DNA of 35,700 bases, taken from positions 1-35,700 of the forward strand of contig JAFQXV010000005.1 in the NCBI GenBank assembly GCA_017406775.1, read 5' to 3'. The notes beneath the pieces were generated by a model, which worked only from the letters and a program-made list of their open reading frames with translations, had not been told where the DNA came from and did not search any database. Origin of the DNA: Candidatus Saccharimonadota bacterium (lineage in GTDB: Bacteria > Patescibacteriota > Saccharimonadia > Saccharimonadales > Saccharimonadaceae). Position numbers and translations under genes: made by a program. Shown piece after piece: positions 255-21,863 of this stretch (positions within the stretch are counted from its first letter, which is position 1; each line of letters begins with the position of its first letter).

Positions 255-458
255 GTAACGACCTCACTTAAATCTTCTAATCTTGTGGTGCCATCTTATT
301 TAAAGGCATGCATAAAAATGACGCCACAAGGTGCCATACCCAATCATTCTGCGTCAGCTTTTAACCGTTCGCAAAAGACGGTTCCTCATGGTGCCATCCT
401 TTCTAACGATCGGCTCGGGAAGACTGACGCAAAACGGAATGATTGAATATAGCACCTT
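255..458 (-). promoter_or_regulatory. Long structured 5' leader, possible cis-regulatory RNA
   Basis: About 200 nt separate the likely transcription start (near 453) from the ATG at 254. The RNA 5' end (458-437) can pair with 349-328 over 22 consecutive base pairs, three of them G-U. After a 5-nt bulge there are 8 more pairs (431-424 with 357-350). The enclosed region holds a further hairpin (AACCGT/ACGGTT). The 3' strand of the long helix can instead form TGACGC/GCGTCA (356-351 with 324-319) followed by five U, a weak attenuator-like alternative. TGGCACC occurs three times in the leader. The pairing is seen directly; a regulatory role is inference. Confidence 0.55.
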
Positions 459-489: not shown

Positions 490-518
490 AAAAATAGCCC
501 CAAATGGGGCTATTTTTT
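489..518 (-). terminator. Intrinsic terminator after tig
   Basis: The hairpin AATAGCCCC/GGGGCTATT has a short loop and is flanked by A and T runs. It overlaps the tig stop codon and is followed by U on the minus strand. Its symmetry means it could act in both directions. Confidence 0.8.
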
Positions 519-1794
519 AACTATTTTCTTTTACTAGGAAGTCCAGCGTAGCTTCTAAAATCATCCGATTCTTAATATCCATCTTAACATTAGGATCTTT
601 AAGGCTTTTTAAGGCCTCTGGCGATTTTTTGTATACATCGCGTAGTTCGGCGATTTTTGCATTTACAAGATCGTCCGAAACGGTGATTTTTTGCTCTACT
701 GCCAAAGTCTGTAGTGCTAGCGAAGCCTTTACGCGGGTCTCGGCGATTTTTCTGGCCTCTTTCTCCCAGCTTTCTTCGGTTTCTTGGTTTTGCTTTAGAA
801 AATCTTCAAAGCTCATACCTCTAGAGGCGGCATTACGAGTCATATCTTCGCGGATTGCTTTAACTTGATCTTCGATCAAAATTTCTGGTGCTGGCACCTT
901 GGAGGCTTTAACTAGGGCCTCCACTAGCTGATCTTTAAACTTTTCCTCGGCCCGGTGAGCATTTTGAGCTTCTAAGTTTTTCTTGATATCAGCTTTAAGC
1001 TCTTCTAGCGTCTTAAACGGACCGCATTTTTTGGCCATTTCGTCATCAATCTTAGCCTTTGTGACCTCGTTAACCTGTTTCAATAAGACTTCAAATACGG
1101 TTTTGGCGCCTGCCAAATCCTTTACTCCGTAATCTTTAGGGAAAGTTAGTTTTAAATCAAATTTATCACCAAATTCATGGCCTACAATACCATCCTCAAA
1201 GCCAGGAATAAACGAATTAGAGCCCAGTACTAGGTGATAATCCTTGGCGGAACCACCCTTAAAGGCTTTACCGTCCTTTTTGCCTACAAAATCAATGATT
1301 ACTTCGTCGCCGAGTTTAGCTGCACGCTTGACTACCTTTTTCTCGGCAAAAGAGCTGGAAAGATTTTCCAGAACTTCCGTAATATCTTTAGCAGCAACTT
1401 TTGCAACCTCCTTCTTTACGCCCAGTTTTTTGAAATTACCTAATTTTACCTCTGGCACAATATCGGCAGCAGCGATGTATTCCGCCATTTCGCCTGGTAC
1501 ATATTTAGTAACATTTACGCTAGGCAGCACTAGTGGCGATTTTTCTTCCTTACGAAAAGCCTCAATTACGGTAGTTCTTACTGCTAGATCGATAGTTTCG
1601 GCATTTAAATCATTCTCGGGGATAAATTTAGCCGCTACTTCTGCGGGTACTTTCCCTTTTCTAAAGCCTTCTACGTTTACTTCTTTGGCTAATTTTGCTA
1701 AAGCCTTTTCTCTGGCTACGCTTAAATCGTTTTTGTCTAGAGTGACAGTTATTTCGACACGCGAATCAGAAACTTTTTTTGACTTGGTTTTCAT
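517..1794 (-). CDS. tig: Trigger factor, ribosome-associated chaperone and prolyl isomerase
   Basis: The product is 425 residues, the normal size for trigger factor. The N-terminal ribosome-binding domain (about 1-145) carries the signature loop GFRKGKVP (about 43-50), which docks on ribosomal protein L23. A FKBP-type isomerase domain follows (about 155-245), with GDEVIIDFVGKKDG and FIPGFEDGIVG. The rest is the Lys/Glu-rich helical C-terminal domain that cradles nascent chains. It acts in the cytoplasm on newly made proteins. The ATG has an AGGAG Shine-Dalgarno nearby. An extended -10, TGATATAAT, sits just upstream, overlapping the 3' end of the oxidase gene, so tig can be transcribed on its own. 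Confidence 0.95.
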   Translation of the reverse strand: MKTKSKKVSDSRVEITVTLDKNDLSVAREKALAKLAKEVNVEGFRKGKVPAEVAAKFIPENDLNAETIDLAVRTTVIEAFRKEEKSPLVLPSVNVTKYVPGEMAEYIAAADIVPEVKLGNFKKLGVKKEVAKVAAKDITEVLENLSSSFAEKKVVKRAAKLGDEVIIDFVGKKDGKAFKGGSAKDYHLVLGSNSFIPGFEDGIVGHEFGDKFDLKLTFPKDYGVKDLAGAKTVFEVLLKQVNEVTKAKIDDEMAKKCGPFKTLEELKADIKKNLEAQNAHRAEEKFKDQLVEALVKASKVPAPEILIEDQVKAIREDMTRNAASRGMSFEDFLKQNQETEESWEKEARKIAETRVKASLALQTLAVEQKITVSDDLVNAKIAELRDVYKKSPEALKSLKDPNVKMDIKNRMILEATLDFLVKENS

Positions 1795-15203: not shown

Positions 15204-15797
15204 ATGCAACAGCCAGGCGAGAAAGGGTTAGAACCAACAATTCTAGAGGTGAACGAAGGCAAGAAGTATAAGCTAACGGAAGAAACTATCGAAATCGCGG
15301 GCATCACGCTTTATCGAATTCAGGCAATTCGTGACTTCGGGGATGTGTATGCTGGCGACCTCGGCGGTTTCATCGCGGACGAGAACAATCTCTCACATGA
15401 AGGCGAGTGTTGGGTTTACGATTTTGCTCAGGTGTATCAGAATGCAGTAGTTCTAGACGACGCCAGGGTTACTGGCCGTGCTCGTGTCTACGGACATGCC
15501 AAGGTTTGTGAGCGGGCATCTGTAAACCACGATGCTGTTGTGCGCGGAAGAGCTAGGATTTGCGGAAATTCAGTCGTTACCCGCAATGCGCAGGTATCCG
15601 GCAACGCTTGTACTGCCGATTACGCATTGGTTGGCACCAATGCCAAGGTTCATGGTAGTGCTAGAATTTACGAGTTTGCACAGGCCCGTGGTAATGTCAT
15701 CGTTTCTGGCCACGCCAAGCTATACGGGTTTGCCCAGGTCGTCGGAAATGCTAAAATTTCTGGCTACGCAGAAGTATCTGGGTATACCAGTTACTAG
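15204..15797 (+). CDS. YdcK-like hexapeptide-repeat (left-handed beta-helix) protein, paralogue 1
   Basis: The 197-residue protein has two parts. The N-terminal cap (about 15-70) has YKLTEETIEIAGITLYRIQA, then RDFGDVYAGDLGGFIADENN, then LSHEGECWVYD. About 20 hexapeptide turns follow, such as ARVTGR, ARVYGH and AKVCER. The cap plus turns match the pattern I recall from Escherichia coli YdcK and from phage hexapeptide proteins. The transferase-type catalytic histidine loops are not apparent, so enzyme activity is doubtful and a structural role is more likely. There is no signal peptide. An AGGAAGGGGG Shine-Dalgarno and a full promoter precede it, and a terminator follows, so it is a single-gene unit. 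Confidence 0.8.
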   Translation: MQQPGEKGLEPTILEVNEGKKYKLTEETIEIAGITLYRIQAIRDFGDVYAGDLGGFIADENNLSHEGECWVYDFAQVYQNAVVLDDARVTGRARVYGHAKVCERASVNHDAVVRGRARICGNSVVTRNAQVSGNACTADYALVGTNAKVHGSARIYEFAQARGNVIVSGHAKLYGFAQVVGNAKISGYAEVSGYTSY

Positions 15798-15930: not shown

Positions 15931-18900
15931 ATGAGGCATTTTGGTTTAATTACTAGAACTGTGAAACGCCTTGCCACGCTCTGGTTATTGGTTTTGATTG
16001 CAAACGGTGGGTGTAATGTTTTTGCCACCATCGATCCAAACAGCTACTCAGTTAGTATGAGTATGCAAAACCAAAACCAGGGCATAGAAGTTATGGGCGG
16101 GAGCACTACCGAACAGTACGTCGGAACCAGACGTACGCTTTCTGTTAGCACTAACGCCCCATCCGGTTACCATGTATATGTTTACGTTCCGGCCGATGAA
16201 GCCTCTGCTGGCAACTTAGTCTTATCTGGTGGTGATTCCTCTAGTCCCATAATCAGCACACTAAGCTCTAATCCATCCACTGCAACCACCCTCAGCCCAG
16301 ACACTTGGGGCTTCGGGATTCCTAACTCTACTTCGGGGCTACCCACTAATAACTTTAGCCCGTCATACAATGCTACTTCCCCCTCTGCTGGTAGTAATTA
16401 TTCTGGGGTAAAAATTAGCCCAAACTATACTTTAATTCGTAATTACACGGGCGCAGTTTCCGGGACGGATAGTTTCGATATCTATTATGGCATGAGATTA
16501 GCTTCCGACGTATTATCTACGCCAGGCACCTATCAAACTAACATTTCTTATCATGCTATGATTGATGCTACTGATATTGTAGGAGGAGAAGCTACGATTT
16601 CGCCTGTATCCGGTCCTAAATCTGGCTACGAAAACGTTACTATTACTACTTCTTTAATGACAGATTTTGTGCCAAACGATATTTCTGTGACTATCGGCGG
16701 TCAAGAGTGCCTAACTCCCAGGGGTAACATCAGTACTGGCGTGCTACGCATCAACTGTACAACACAGGCACATACACCAGACACCTTAGATGTTTCTATC
16801 AATATAGCATCCCTAGGTATTAGTTATTTGATTCAAGATGGTTATGAATATCTAGAAACTGGCGATGTCAAAATCACCAATGTAGCATATGTGTCTGGCA
16901 CTAACGTTAATGGCACACCTCATCCATCTGTGGATGAAAATAATGATGTAGATTTTGATCTTACTTTTAAGAGCGGTGTCACCGAAAACGACAATACCTT
17001 TACCGCAACATATCGTTTTACCATGGCTAATACTACATCCAGTGATTACATCTTTACGGCTCCAGTTTCAAACTTGGTTCTGCGTTTGTCGTCTACCACC
17101 ACTAGCGAAGTCTATTACGAGCTGGACGGTATTTCCGTTGGCGACACAATTCCTGCAAATAGCACAGTCTCATTTAATATTATCCTGTCCGCAGATTATG
17201 CATCTGGTACGCACGGCGTTGAAGGTGGCATAGAGATTGAACCAGTAGAGGATAAAACTGGTGCGCTGATTGGATCCATCCATGGAACTAACGAAGGAGA
17301 TTTGTCTGGCAACCATGAATTGGCCATGTTCCAGGTTAGTGTCCAAAATACGTTTTCTTCCGACAAAATCTTTACAATCGACGTAATCGGAAATGATTTT
17401 GTGGTGGCTAATTCGTCGGGAGGCTATTTGGATGCACAGACAATCGCAGCGGGTAGTACCTCGGTATATACTTTCTACTTAAAGAAGGCCTCGGGCGCTA
17501 CTTACGGCAGCGATTTTGTAAATGCCGCCATCGTACTTTCCTATGACGGGATCGAAACCAATAGTGGCACTGTTAAACTAGCCGTAGATAAAGATGCGTC
17601 ATTTGTTGATACCGAAGCTCCGTACATCAGCGGTGTTTCGGTTGTACGGAATGATACAATTGGCTCTGCTACAGTTTCTTGGTCTGGCACAGACAATGTT
17701 GGTGTGGCAAGCTACGCCATTTATCCATGTACAAAAGCTAACGATATCTACACTTGTGGCACACCAGTAACCGGCATCAGCGGTAACGCCACTTCCTATA
17801 CTTTAACCGGCCTAGGTGACGGCAATTATGGCATAGTCGTGGTGGGCTTTGACGATGAGGGTAACACCGCCACGCAAGGCGAAATAGATACGGCCACTAC
17901 AGATACTGGCCACGCTTCAAGAAGTGAAGATACCGAGCTTAGATGGACCTTTAACATTACTGGCAGAATTACCAACGGCACGCTTAGCAATAATGGCCAA
18001 ACTATTCAGATGGGCGGGAGCTACACTGGCACTATTAGGGCAAATAGTGGCTATAATACACCTGGCTCAGTCACGGTAGAAATGAACGGAAGGACCTTGA
18101 CTGGTAGTCAATACTCCTATAACAATGGCTCAATTGCTATCAATATCCCAGTAGATGGCGATATAGAAATTACAGCCAACTGTCCTTGGGACTGGTGTAT
18201 TATCGAGGGCACATTAATTGCCCTAGCAGACGGGACCTCTATCCCAATCGAACAGGTCAATTATGACACATTGCTCAAAGTTTGGAATTATGAAACTGGT
18301 AGCGTAGGCGCCGAGTACCCAGCTTGGATCGAGAAAAAAGCCACCACCCATGCCTATCAACTAACGAAATTTGATGACGGTACTGAACTTAAGACTGCTG
18401 GTTGGCACGGCGTGTTCGATGTAGACGCCAACGCATTCATATCGATAGATGATCCTAACTTTGACGTAGGCTCTAGGGTTTACAAAGTCAACGAGAATGA
18501 CGAGCTCGAAATCGTCACCGTGGTAAGTATAGAAAGAGTAGAAGAGGAAGTCAACTATTATCATGTTGTATCCAGCCAATATTATAATATTATTGCTAAT
18601 AATATTATTACAACGGATGGCGCCGTATATCTATCTAATCTTTATGGCTTTGATGAGAATCTCAAATGGCCAGCCATTAGAGAAGAAATTATGTCCGACC
18701 CGAATAATCTTTATACCTATGCCGACTTCCAGGACATCGGTATGCCGGAACGCATGTTTAATGAGCTTCGCGTAAGGGAGGGCAAGTATCTAGCTACCAA
18801 GTATGGCATTAGCCTCGAGATATTTAAGGGCTACCTCCTCTCTAATCAACTCAATACCGATATCTGGCTGCCATACTGCGATGCTTCGCCAATCCGCACG

Positions 18901-19209
18901 GAATACTGCGCTTCGGAGGAGTCGAATTTAGTTACTCCAACAAATAATTCTTATATGTCGCAAGAACAAGTTCGTCCTGGTAGCAATGAGACGCATAACA
19001 ATTCCGACGAAGAATCGCCAGAAGCCTCTAGCCTGTATAGTAATCCGCTAGGCGTTAAGGACGATTCCATTACAACGTCAGACGTAATTGAATACCAGGA
19101 TTGGACTTCAGCCGAAAACTTAGCCTTACTAAGCGTAGTTGCAGCAACTACTTCTGGACTAATTTATGGATTAGCAAAAAACATCAAAAAAGATCGAGAA
19201 GACAGCTAG
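15931..19209 (+). CDS. Large secreted surface protein with Ig-like/FN3 modules, a Hint domain and a C-terminal membrane anchor
   Basis: The 1092-residue product has a signal peptide (about 1-33, ending VFA). An N-terminal module (about 35-210) contains SGYHVYVYVPAD. Then come an IPT/TIG-like domain (about 215-310), further beta domains, and a FN3-like domain (about 565-665). A Hint (Hedgehog/intein) domain spans about 756-898: candidate nucleophile Cys756 in WCIIEGTLIALADGTSIPIE, block B TAGWHGVF with His826, and a block-F-like YYHVVSSQYYNIIANNI. The usual C-terminal His-Asn is absent (TTDG follows), so cleavage or a degenerate structural domain is more likely than splicing. A transmembrane helix (about 1062-1082) and a basic tail end the chain. 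It lies amid hexapeptide genes and has its own promoter. Self-processing is inference. Confidence 0.85.
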   Translation: MRHFGLITRTVKRLATLWLLVLIANGGCNVFATIDPNSYSVSMSMQNQNQGIEVMGGSTTEQYVGTRRTLSVSTNAPSGYHVYVYVPADEASAGNLVLSGGDSSSPIISTLSSNPSTATTLSPDTWGFGIPNSTSGLPTNNFSPSYNATSPSAGSNYSGVKISPNYTLIRNYTGAVSGTDSFDIYYGMRLASDVLSTPGTYQTNISYHAMIDATDIVGGEATISPVSGPKSGYENVTITTSLMTDFVPNDISVTIGGQECLTPRGNISTGVLRINCTTQAHTPDTLDVSINIASLGISYLIQDGYEYLETGDVKITNVAYVSGTNVNGTPHPSVDENNDVDFDLTFKSGVTENDNTFTATYRFTMANTTSSDYIFTAPVSNLVLRLSSTTTSEVYYELDGISVGDTIPANSTVSFNIILSADYASGTHGVEGGIEIEPVEDKTGALIGSIHGTNEGDLSGNHELAMFQVSVQNTFSSDKIFTIDVIGNDFVVANSSGGYLDAQTIAAGSTSVYTFYLKKASGATYGSDFVNAAIVLSYDGIETNSGTVKLAVDKDASFVDTEAPYISGVSVVRNDTIGSATVSWSGTDNVGVASYAIYPCTKANDIYTCGTPVTGISGNATSYTLTGLGDGNYGIVVVGFDDEGNTATQGEIDTATTDTGHASRSEDTELRWTFNITGRITNGTLSNNGQTIQMGGSYTGTIRANSGYNTPGSVTVEMNGRTLTGSQYSYNNGSIAINIPVDGDIEITANCPWDWCIIEGTLIALADGTSIPIEQVNYDTLLKVWNYETGSVGAEYPAWIEKKATTHAYQLTKFDDGTELKTAGWHGVFDVDANAFISIDDPNFDVGSRVYKVNENDELEIVTVVSIERVEEEVNYYHVVSSQYYNIIANNIITTDGAVYLSNLYGFDENLKWPAIREEIMSDPNNLYTYADFQDIGMPERMFNELRVREGKYLATKYGISLEIFKGYLLSNQLNTDIWLPYCDASPIRTEYCASEESNLVTPTNNSYMSQEQVRPGSNETHNNSDEESPEASSLYSNPLGVKDDSITTSDVIEYQDWTSAENLALLSVVAATTSGLIYGLAKNIKKDREDS

Positions 19210-19243: not shown

Positions 19244-19304
19244 GGCTAAACAACCACCGATAGGTGATTAGCAACTTAAGGCCATTAAATGATTGGGGGG
19301 ATTT

Positions 19305-19892
19305 ATGGACAAAAAGTACGGTTTTACAGGCGAAACGTTAACGATGGCGGATGGGACGGTACTGCATCAGATCTATGCATTAAGGAGTTTTGGCGATGTA
19401 GAAGCAGGAAGAGTTGGCGGATATGTAGCTTCCGAGAAGAACCTTAGTCACCACTATAGCTGTTGGGTTCACGAAGGCGCTATCGCCTATGGCAACGCCA
19501 AGGTGGCCGGCAACGCACAAGTCTCTGGCGGCGCCAGAGTTTATGGCAATGCGCACGTGTTCGGAAATACGCGAATCAATGGCAATGCACTAGTTTGTGG
19601 TAATGCAGTTGTCTGTGGCGCGTCTAGAATTACTGGCAATGCGATAATTACCGGCAACGCCAGAATCAGTGAATATGCGTACATCGGTGACAATGCCGTG
19701 GTTGACGGCCATGCTAGTGTGTACGACTATGCTCGTATCTGCGGATGCGCAAAGGTGTCTGGTAGCGCCAAAGCTTACGGCTATGCGCAAATTGGCGACA
19801 ACGCCACAGTCCTCGATAACGCCAAAATTTGTGGTTACACACATCTTTCTGGCGATACCGTAGTCTCTTGTTATAAGACGGTTTGCGATTAG
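19305..19892 (+). CDS. YdcK-like hexapeptide-repeat protein, paralogue 2
   Basis: Start chosen at ATG 19305 (MDKKYGFTGETL), which has a GGGGGG Shine-Dalgarno; an upstream in-frame TTG would lie within that site. The 195-residue product has the same cap as the other paralogues (LHQIYALRSFGDVEAGRVGG, LSHHYSCWVHE) and then about 20 hexapeptide turns (AQVSGG, ARVYGN, AHVFGN) predicted to coil into a left-handed beta-helix. It is cytoplasmic by sequence, with no signal or membrane segment. It is followed after 16 bases by paralogue 3, so the two form an operon. Function unknown; a trimeric beta-helix scaffold is the most natural guess. Confidence 0.8.
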   Translation: MDKKYGFTGETLTMADGTVLHQIYALRSFGDVEAGRVGGYVASEKNLSHHYSCWVHEGAIAYGNAKVAGNAQVSGGARVYGNAHVFGNTRINGNALVCGNAVVCGASRITGNAIITGNARISEYAYIGDNAVVDGHASVYDYARICGCAKVSGSAKAYGYAQIGDNATVLDNAKICGYTHLSGDTVVSCYKTVCD

Positions 19893-19908
19893 TGCTAGGG
19901 GGGAGAAA

Positions 19909-20319
19909 ATGGATAACGATAAGTATGATTTTACCGACGATTCCATCGTAATCTGCGGCCATAGACTGCACCGCATCGTAGCAAAGCGTAAGATCGGCTA
20001 CGTTGAGGCGGGTCAGCTGGGTGGCTATATCGAACTGCCCAGTAATCTCGACTCAGAGGGTGATTGCTGGGTTGGCCAAGAGGCCAAGGTGTATGGATAC
20101 CTTGCCACGGTCCAAGACGATGCTCTGGTTTTTGGCAATGCCGTAGTCCATGGCGCCACTAAGGTAATGGATCAAGCCATGATCTGTGACGATAGTCACG
20201 TAAATGGCTATGCCGGAATGGGCAAAATCTCCGTAGTTGGGGGATGTTCTGTTATCTGTGGTGACGCTCATCTATTTGGTGATTTCAACGTCGTTGACGA
20301 AGTAATCATCAGCAAGTAA
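19909..20319 (+). CDS. YdcK-like hexapeptide-repeat protein, short paralogue 3
   Basis: The 136-residue protein has the family cap (YDFTDDSIVICGHRLHRIVA, YVEAGQLGGYIELPSN, CWVGQEAKVYG) but only about ten, less regular, turns. It is the shortest of the four paralogues. Loss of turns or an independent shorter lineage would both explain it. GGGGGGAG precedes the ATG by 4 bases. It is co-transcribed with paralogue 2, and a strong terminator follows. Confidence 0.75.
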   Translation: MDNDKYDFTDDSIVICGHRLHRIVAKRKIGYVEAGQLGGYIELPSNLDSEGDCWVGQEAKVYGYLATVQDDALVFGNAVVHGATKVMDQAMICDDSHVNGYAGMGKISVVGGCSVICGDAHLFGDFNVVDEVIISK

Positions 20320-21200: not shown

Positions 21201-21287
21201 TAAGGCATAACCGATATTCCACCACATAAGGGGTGTGTTATATAGTAATTTAATAGTTGGTTCATTTGTCCTTTGAAAGGGGATAAG

Positions 21288-21863
21288 ATGTCCGAGAAGA
21301 AGTACGAGTTCACCGATGAAACTATCGAAGAAGATGGCCACATCCTTCACCGAATCCGTGCCCTGCGCGACTTTGACAGTGTCCATGCTGGCGACCTCGG
21401 CGGTTACATTGAGAACGAGCGTAATCTCTCTCATGATGGAGTCTGCTGGGTCTCCGGCGATGCCTGGGTCTACGGCGAGGCTCAAGTCTCCGGCGATGCC
21501 TTGGTCTACGGCTGGGCTCAAGTCTACGACAGGGCTCAAGTCTCCGGCGATGCCTGGGTCTACGGCTGGGCTCAAGTCTACGACAGGGCTCAAGTCTCCG
21601 GCAATGCCATGGTCTCCGGCGAGGCTCAAGTCTACGGTGACGCTCAGGTCTTCGGCGAGGCTCAAGTCTACGGTGATGCCCTTGTCTTCGACGGCGCCGA
21701 GGTCTACGGCTGCGCCCGCGTCTTCGACCAAGCCCGTGTCTTCGACCAAGCCCGTGTCTTCGACCAAGCCCGTGTCTTTTATCAAGCTCGGGTTTTCTAT
21801 CGAGACGAAGTTGTAGGCGTCCGTGCCGAACGGATGCCGCCAGAAGAGCTTGAGGACAAGTAA
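21288..21863 (+). CDS. YdcK-like hexapeptide-repeat protein, paralogue 4, with recent internal repeats
   Basis: Start chosen at ATG 21288 (MSEKKYEFTDETIEE), with AAAGGGG 5 bases upstream, rather than an in-frame TTG at 21273 inside that region. The 191-residue protein has the family cap (LHRIRALRDFDSVHAGDLGG, LSHDGVCWVSG) and then very regular turns (AQVYGD, ALVYGW, AQVYDR), ending in five near-identical ARVFDQ-type turns. The repeat DNA is much more uniform than in the sister genes, so this copy has expanded recently. Predicted cytoplasmic left-handed beta-helix; function unknown. Its own promoter and terminator make it a single-gene unit. Confidence 0.8.
   Translation: MSEKKYEFTDETIEEDGHILHRIRALRDFDSVHAGDLGGYIENERNLSHDGVCWVSGDAWVYGEAQVSGDALVYGWAQVYDRAQVSGDAWVYGWAQVYDRAQVSGNAMVSGEAQVYGDAQVFGEAQVYGDALVFDGAEVYGCARVFDQARVFDQARVFDQARVFYQARVFYRDEVVGVRAERMPPEELEDK
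21483..21806 (+). repeat. Tandem 54-bp and 18-bp repeats in hexapeptide gene 4
   Basis: A 54-bp unit (three hexapeptide turns) occurs at 21483-21536, again almost identically at 21537-21590, and partly from 21591. Five 18-bp units run from 21717 to 21806; the first three are nearly identical (GTCTTCGACCAAGCCCG core). All keep the frame. Confidence 0.85.

Follow-up and report, generated by a model that had tools for sequence, protein, structure and literature searches.

Structured leader RNAs with locus-specific stems precede surface-protein genes in a Saccharibacteria genus

Saccharibacteria are tiny episymbionts living on other bacteria. The stretch of DNA analysed here, called the window, comprises the first 35,700 nucleotides of contig JAFQXV010000005.1 of Candidatus Saccharimonadota bacterium, and close to its start a leader of about 200 nt lies between tig (517-1794, minus strand), with a terminator, and the ATG at 254 (minus strand) of a gene whose product has a signal-peptide-like start. 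Is this leader a maintained RNA structure, and what could it do in front of such a gene? A preliminary description had drawn a helix of 22 + 8 bp with one bulge in it; the helix is present, but only when the sequence is read on the minus strand, which had been left unstated. The leader RNA runs from 458 to 282, and the following features can be placed around it:

1-254, minus: secreted surface-protein gene, 5' part (84 aa read; the contig end cuts the gene)
261-265, minus: Shine-Dalgarno sequence GAGGT (from sequence; GAGG(T/C) in the same place in relatives)
282-294, minus: motif 3, ATGGCACCACAAG, forming P4 with motif 2; missing or degraded in some relatives
282-458, minus: structured leader RNA element (P1-P3, motif 1, motif 2, P4), from covariance models and fold z
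314-318, minus: U5 tract behind motif 2, within ATTTTTATG (311-319)
320-331, minus: motif 2, CCTTGTGGCGTC, the hub strand, whose partner is motif 1 or motif 3
330-349, minus: P1 3' strand (arm complementarity; pairing kept in relatives)
350-357, minus: P2 3' strand, CTGACGCA, overlapping an arm of the alternative hairpin of the preliminary description
363-372, minus: P3 3' strand (pairing kept in relatives)
384-397, minus: motif 1, ATGGCACCATGAGG, in the apical hairpin, complement of motif 2
405-415, minus: P3 5' strand (pairing kept in relatives)
424-431, minus: P2 5' strand, TGCGTCAG (pairing kept in relatives)
437-456, minus: P1 5' strand, predicted transcript 5' end (among relatives, both sides have changed in 18 of 19 P1 model pairs)
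460-468, minus: extended -10 promoter box, TGTTATAAT (from sequence; a TATAAT-like box equally spaced in nearly all relatives)
489-518, no strand assigned: bidirectional terminator, parting tig from the leader

The two 22-nt arms (437-458 and 328-349) are 86% Watson-Crick complementary and, with G-U pairs included, nearly fully paired; beyond them come one 5-nt bulge and the 8-bp helix 424-431/350-357, enclosing a further stem and the apical hairpin. The minus-strand RNA of 282-458 has a folding energy of -82.3 kcal/mol (z about -10 in relation to dinucleotide shuffles), and the element scores 195 bits with R1, a covariance model made from three sequences including the window copy, and 149 bits with R2, made from 30 copies. 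From the position of TGTTATAAT (468-460) transcription is predicted to start at about 457-453, at the first pairs of P1. A TATAAT-like box stands directly upstream of nearly all copies and abuts the 5' arm, which disfavours a start downstream of that arm.

The leader is not peculiar to this contig. A plain DNA search recovered it, at 84% and 74%, from two further genomes of the genus, each time between tig and a secreted-protein gene; one of these relatives is Candidatus Saccharibacteria contig CAMNGP010000001.1 (the same sequence as genome G039), and the G039 protein behind the same leader is 76% identical to that of the window. With R1, 52 of 174 genomes of one Saccharibacteria genus were matched, many with numerous copies, while R2 at E<=1 gave 75, 63, 70 and 85 matches in genomes G055, G195, G190 and G115, respectively, counts in which weak matches may be antisense echoes; about 150 of the listed matches have E below about 1e-16. 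The window's genome (G000) has one confident copy, and beyond the genus matches are few and weaker. What family members share, a -10 box directly followed by the P1-P3 hairpin, motif 1 and motif 2 with U5, is found in the window as well. Distant leaders of the same plan were observed in a sister genus (L162, L164) and in other families of the order (L165, L166, L167), with a clean local hairpin GACACC-UUGC-GGUGUC-(G)UUUUU and before unrelated genes (methyltransferase-like in L165).

Among 4227 Rfam models only tRNAs reach the gathering score, and the element has no credible match at relaxed thresholds either, which agrees with the earlier statement that no known riboswitch class is recognised. 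The phage collection searched gave no match, and no description of the leader was found in the open-access literature. When GTDB contigs were scanned with the conserved P1 string, most matches were unrelated and due to chance, and the motif 2 pattern occurs near chance level outside the family in 379 genomes of the phylum. One contig filed as viral (IMGVR_UViG_3300029305_004784, L278, 11272-11293) has exact motif 2 with U5 and may be a Saccharibacteria chromosome or mobile element. Apparently this is a genus-wide, multi-copy family of leader RNAs, larger than first noted and undescribed.

Maintenance of the structure is seen in 30 sense copies, in which 92.3% of cells are paired compared to 34.7-45.5% in slid controls, 48 of 63 pairs have changed on both sides and doubly changed cells number 391, against 106 in shuffles. 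Since three of these 30 had served to build the model to which the alignment was fitted, each copy was also folded alone: in this model-free examination P1 forms in the minimum-energy fold of 57 out of 61 elements, with a mean z of -9.4. G-U pairs (175) far exceed A-C pairs (26) among the non-Watson-Crick ones, which indicates that selection acts on the transcribed minus-strand RNA rather than on DNA hairpins or the other strand. An RNA of the plus strand, convergent to tig, is ruled out by this bias and by gene context. The compensatory changes in relatives on which the preliminary description had staked its proposal are abundant, and its view of a cis-regulatory type of leader with mutually exclusive pairings in front of secreted-protein genes is supported. 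We regard it as nearly certain that the element is a conserved leader RNA of surface genes.

From 5' to 3' the parts follow in the order P1, P2, internal loop, P3, motif 1, the 3' strands, motif 2, U5, usually motif 3, Shine-Dalgarno sequence and ATG. P1 (about 20 bp, starting with GUGC or similar), P2 (about 9 bp) and P3 are all variable. Motif 1 is GGCACCGUAAGG with variants, usually after A's; motif 2 is CCUUGCGGUGCC, at once behind the 3' strands and followed by U5; motif 3 is GGCACCGCAAGG, usually downstream of U5. The threefold TGGCACC noticed earlier does occur in three minus-strand copies, in motif 1 (384-397), at the P1 end (330-349) and in motif 3 (282-294), but it is really one motif present twice, in motifs 1 and 3, the P1-end copy being specific to the window; most relatives have TAGCACC or similar there. 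Likewise, the TGACGC/GCGTCA hairpin followed by UUUUU can be found at about 351-356/320-326, but it is not conserved as an alternative hairpin because one of its arms lies in P2, a helix with a different sequence in almost all relatives. It is therefore a feature of the window only; the alternative pairing that relatives do conserve joins motif 2, with its U5, to motif 1 in the apical hairpin.

The pairing of motifs 1 and 2 is kept in 292 of 300 pairs, in 25 distinct combinations, compared to 279 when shuffled (p<5e-5), and in a larger set in 97.1% against 93.9%, with 87% against 71% at the flanking position. Position 7 shows G-C/A-U exchanges, position 9 is A-U, G-C, C-G, U-A or G-U, and the pair flanking the helix is U-A, C-G, A-U or G-C among copies. 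The helix is kept where motif 3 is degraded (L151, L152, L156-L158, L161) and is less perfect in distant relatives; in the window it is weaker, with 11 of 12 pairs formed, 8 of them Watson-Crick. Spacing between the two motifs is nearly constant (41-59 nt), and all 55 RNAs that were folded after truncation 5' of motif 1 form the motif 1:2 helix. Nearly every copy that has a gene retains U5, whereas the tract is broken in L155, which has no surface gene behind it. Pairing of the A tract with the U tract was no better than shuffled. That motif 1 is constrained mainly by a GNRA tetraloop was rejected, as loops such as AUCA and GUUA break GNRA with the pairing to motif 2 kept. Rejected as well was a local hairpin of the P1 end (GCACC) with motif 2 (GGUGC), which within the genus is lost when P1 ends in GACACC; in distant relatives it is good (GACACC/GGUGUC; L162, L164, L165, L167).

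Both pairings are conserved, as in the alternative leader helices of an attenuator. With a linker of 0-2 nt between P1 and motif 2, geometry suggests that the full P1-P3 rod and the motif 1:2 helix would be mutually exclusive. If P2-P3 are kept, the two states lie on average 5.6 +/- 5.1 kcal/mol apart before any pseudoknot penalty, and about 24 kcal/mol in the window, favouring P1-P3.

The structures, their maintenance on the minus strand, the motif 1:2 pairing and the gene context were demonstrated by computation, and the model that we favour, with a probability of about one half, is a bistable, attenuator-like leader of shuffled surface genes. The leader would act as a switch in cis, with transcription starting at the first pairs of P1. 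In one state, here state A, the long P1-P3 hairpin would hide motif 1 in its tip and leave motif 2 free to form P4 with motif 3, so that polymerase would continue into the gene (ON). In the other, state B, P1 would be open, and motifs 1 and 2 would form a GC-rich helix ending on five U, with an early stop of transcription, i.e. attenuation. Which state is taken would presumably depend on some factor, perhaps an RNA or protein acting in trans or the loss of the 5' strand. A terminator-like helix and the U5 can be seen, but several findings speak against an attenuator: the nested motif 1:2 loop, of about 50 nt, is poor for an intrinsic terminator, and P1-P3 is the first to form during transcription and usually the more stable, so that without a factor opening P1 the leader would stay in state A. 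The shuffle-like pairing of the A and U tracts and the weaker motif 1:2 helix of the window count against it as well.

The genes behind the leaders are of one general kind. In 27 of 30 leaders from different genomes the leader runs into the start of an ORF, most with an SD-like GAGG, and these ORFs look like signal-peptide proteins where the contig continues; the three exceptions are L139 (contig end), L155 (rpsL is next) and L159 (a terminator-like hairpin, then ileS). In G055, 30 of 31 long genes behind leaders carry an RC(V/L/I)-type, C-type-lectin-like tail, and the Pfam family Fib_succ_major (PF09603) is matched by one G055 protein with E 1.8e-7, just under the cut-off, and by the G039 protein with 5.8e-4. 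The best reading is that the leader family belongs to C-type-lectin-like (FISUMP) surface genes. Orphan leaders, with no surface gene, were observed at L155 1501-1656 (G166:C5), adjoining rpsL, at L159 1501-1671 (G107:C6) and at L175 1501-1682, the latter two with a terminator-like hairpin downstream; the tig-rpsL interval of G039 holds a leader plus gene. Such orphans may have been left behind by cassettes since lost, or may be small RNAs in their own right. In the window, the signal-peptide coding region of the leader-controlled gene contains a 33-nt inverted repeat (147-179/215-247, minus strand, 88% complementary), and a similar arrangement, AACATAAC...GTTATGTT, is present in the G039 gene (L009 5245-5350).

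Leaders and genes do not always travel together. We compared G055 and G195 at loci with near-identical upstream DNA, and at these orthologous loci P1-P3 is 74-100% identical (unrelated P1-P3 pairs score about 0.67) while the gene is often different. Between L186 and L229 the upstream DNA and P1-P3 are fully shared and the genes 58% identical, and the counterpart of the L186 gene (80%, identical from motif 2 to the gene start) is found at another locus, L240. Similarly, P1-P3 and gene identities are 1.00 and 0.45 for L247/L236 and 0.90 and 0.32 for L260/L243, while the L179 gene is 0.39 identical to that of L228 and 0.90 to that of L233 elsewhere. In other alignments (L187/L233, L246/L232, L248/L265) new or strongly altered sequence fills the hairpin tips and pairs again, while the flanks have hardly changed and motifs 1 and 2 are kept. 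Judging from these, the divergence of the stems between sister species seems to outpace that of the DNA around them; diversifying selection, recombination among leaders or template-switch correction may be the cause. All copies of a genome have nearly identical motifs 1 and 2, and each locus has a P1-P3 of its own.

Contig breaks frequently fall at the motif 2-gene start that copies share, several of them exactly at the 3' end of the element; in the window's genome, three contigs, the window's among them, stop at one and the same residue of a gene start that they have in common. Three surface genes of G000 have an identical mature N-terminus (PHSSALTYQQDIPVSFTFNSS...TASDSNI), at the C1 start, C9:6554-6748 (L272) and C10:47437-47640 (L273), with the leader seen only before the window copy, and the C10 start (C10:2-1027, L266) holds a matching C-terminal part.

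Reverse transcriptases with adenine-rich template repeats next to them also occur in these genomes. The G055 element (C3:21067-21660, L202) is a textbook diversity-generating retroelement (DGR): between the template and the adjacent variable repeat, 23 of 57 A and 0 of 141 other positions are changed; in another gene, of G000, the changes affect 28 of 50 A and 1 of 139 other positions. G000 has three reverse transcriptases, with DGR sites at C13:136450-137067 (L203), C13:138418-138900 (L267), C12:125651-126346 (L196) and C2:50124-50732. Leader-preceded genes of G055 and G195 are at most 69% identical to the G055 template, with differences enriched at A (27/57 vs 35/141), and appear on sequence grounds to be related to it; as current targets they are only candidates. 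Elsewhere in the window, the plus strand encodes a 1092-aa secreted protein (15931-19209) with, by eye, a Hint (hedgehog/intein)-like stretch near the C-terminus (CIIEGTLIALADG...IIANNIITTDG), and small paralogous repeat proteins of V-x-G-x-A-x-V type, hexapeptide-like (15204-15797, 19293-20319, 21273-21863).

Could the leader be something other than such a switch? P1 forms a near-perfect duplex of about 20 bp from the predicted +1 in nearly all copies, as would suit a 5'-end stabiliser or RNase III substrate that protects or processes the mRNA while its stem sequence drifts freely. We consider this unlikely, since it leaves the covariation of motifs 1 and 2, their near-constant spacing and the kept U5 unexplained. 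Quite improbable is a ligand riboswitch with the U-rich P2/P3 bulge and the apical hairpin as aptamer and motif 2 as expression platform: a U-run does recur in the 5' strand of the internal loop between P2 and P3, and the apical hairpin does not vary, but the constant parts are only motifs 1-3 and that U-run, the strongly conserved residues are engaged in pairing among themselves, an unpaired conserved core was not observed, and dozens of copies per genome serve a single class of genes. There is a similarly small chance of pairing in trans, in which motif 2 of one surface mRNA would bind motif 1 left exposed in a second one, so that members of the family would regulate or exclude each other. 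The genome-wide uniformity of the motifs, next to locus-private stems, fits this idea, but in L138, L143, L163 and L174 a rare variant of motif 1 has its matching motif 2 within the same leader, as one would expect if the two pair in cis.

The exchange of genes behind identical upstream DNA and P1-P3, and contigs ending exactly at the 3' end of the element, might also bring to mind a DNA recombination site, an integron attC-like hairpin exchanging surface-gene cassettes. This we hold to be very improbable: the excess of G-U over A-C pairs shows that the RNA strand is what selection acts on, almost all copies directly adjoin a promoter-like box, and shared gene starts suffice for homologous recombination. 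A leader-peptide attenuator is hardly credible, for although motif 1 reads AUG GCA CCG UAA (Met-Ala-Pro-stop) in many copies and ATG GCA CCA TGA in the window, a substantial minority starts with ACG and several lose the stop (GCAA, GAAA, ACAA, ACGA, AUCA, GUUA) with motif 2 pairing mostly kept, so that a conserved Met-Ala-Pro mini-ORF was rejected.

The bistable leader stays our preferred reading, and within it the locus-private stems would hold pairing in cis among dozens of similar transcripts. A bolder version, tentative and rather doubtful, is that each genome has 60-85 orthogonal RNA switches whose private hairpins, quick to diversify but always paired anew, set expression of the surface-protein cassette currently behind them. 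If true, an episymbiont would possess an address system made of structured RNA with which to vary its antigens or host range, in addition to the diversification of related proteins by retroelements. The leader is in any case a concrete cis-regulatory candidate on dozens of surface-protein genes per genome, which bears on surface-protein switching, and an unusual RNA family, in which fast-diverging stems stay paired and the same leader precedes different genes at one locus. The R2 model is a means to find the surface regulon, and the pairing of a hairpin tip with the strand behind it is a case open to mutation and rescue.

Several known systems resemble these leaders in part. By eye, UGGCACCGC resembles the T-box core UGGNACCGCG, but there is no constant specifier stem here, the genes encode surface proteins and the conserved partner of the motif is motif 2; a T-box was rejected, RF00230 giving no match even under relaxed conditions and a tRNA-related context being absent (in L159 a terminator-like hairpin stands before an ileS-like gene). 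Integron attC sites likewise conserve structure with free stem sequence and are linked to exchanged gene cassettes, but here selection is on the transcribed RNA strand and the element lies upstream of the gene, with a promoter. Transcription attenuators and antiterminators, for example the RAT sites bound by LicT/SacY or trp-type attenuators, share with our leaders the 5' position and mutually exclusive helices, one of which ends on a U tract. They differ from the situation in these genomes, where a very long antiterminator-like hairpin begins at +1, is hypervariable and locus-specific, has its own apical loop as the alternative strand, is accompanied by no conserved leader peptide and occurs with 63-85 matches per genome in some species. 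vlhA of Mycoplasma gallisepticum is a family for phase and antigenic variation with many surface genes. Like vlhA-type families, the genes described here are dozens of paralogous surface genes in a small genome, with their own promoter regions and shuffling of cassettes; what sets them apart is a regulatory element that is a structured RNA rather than a promoter repeat or invertible DNA.
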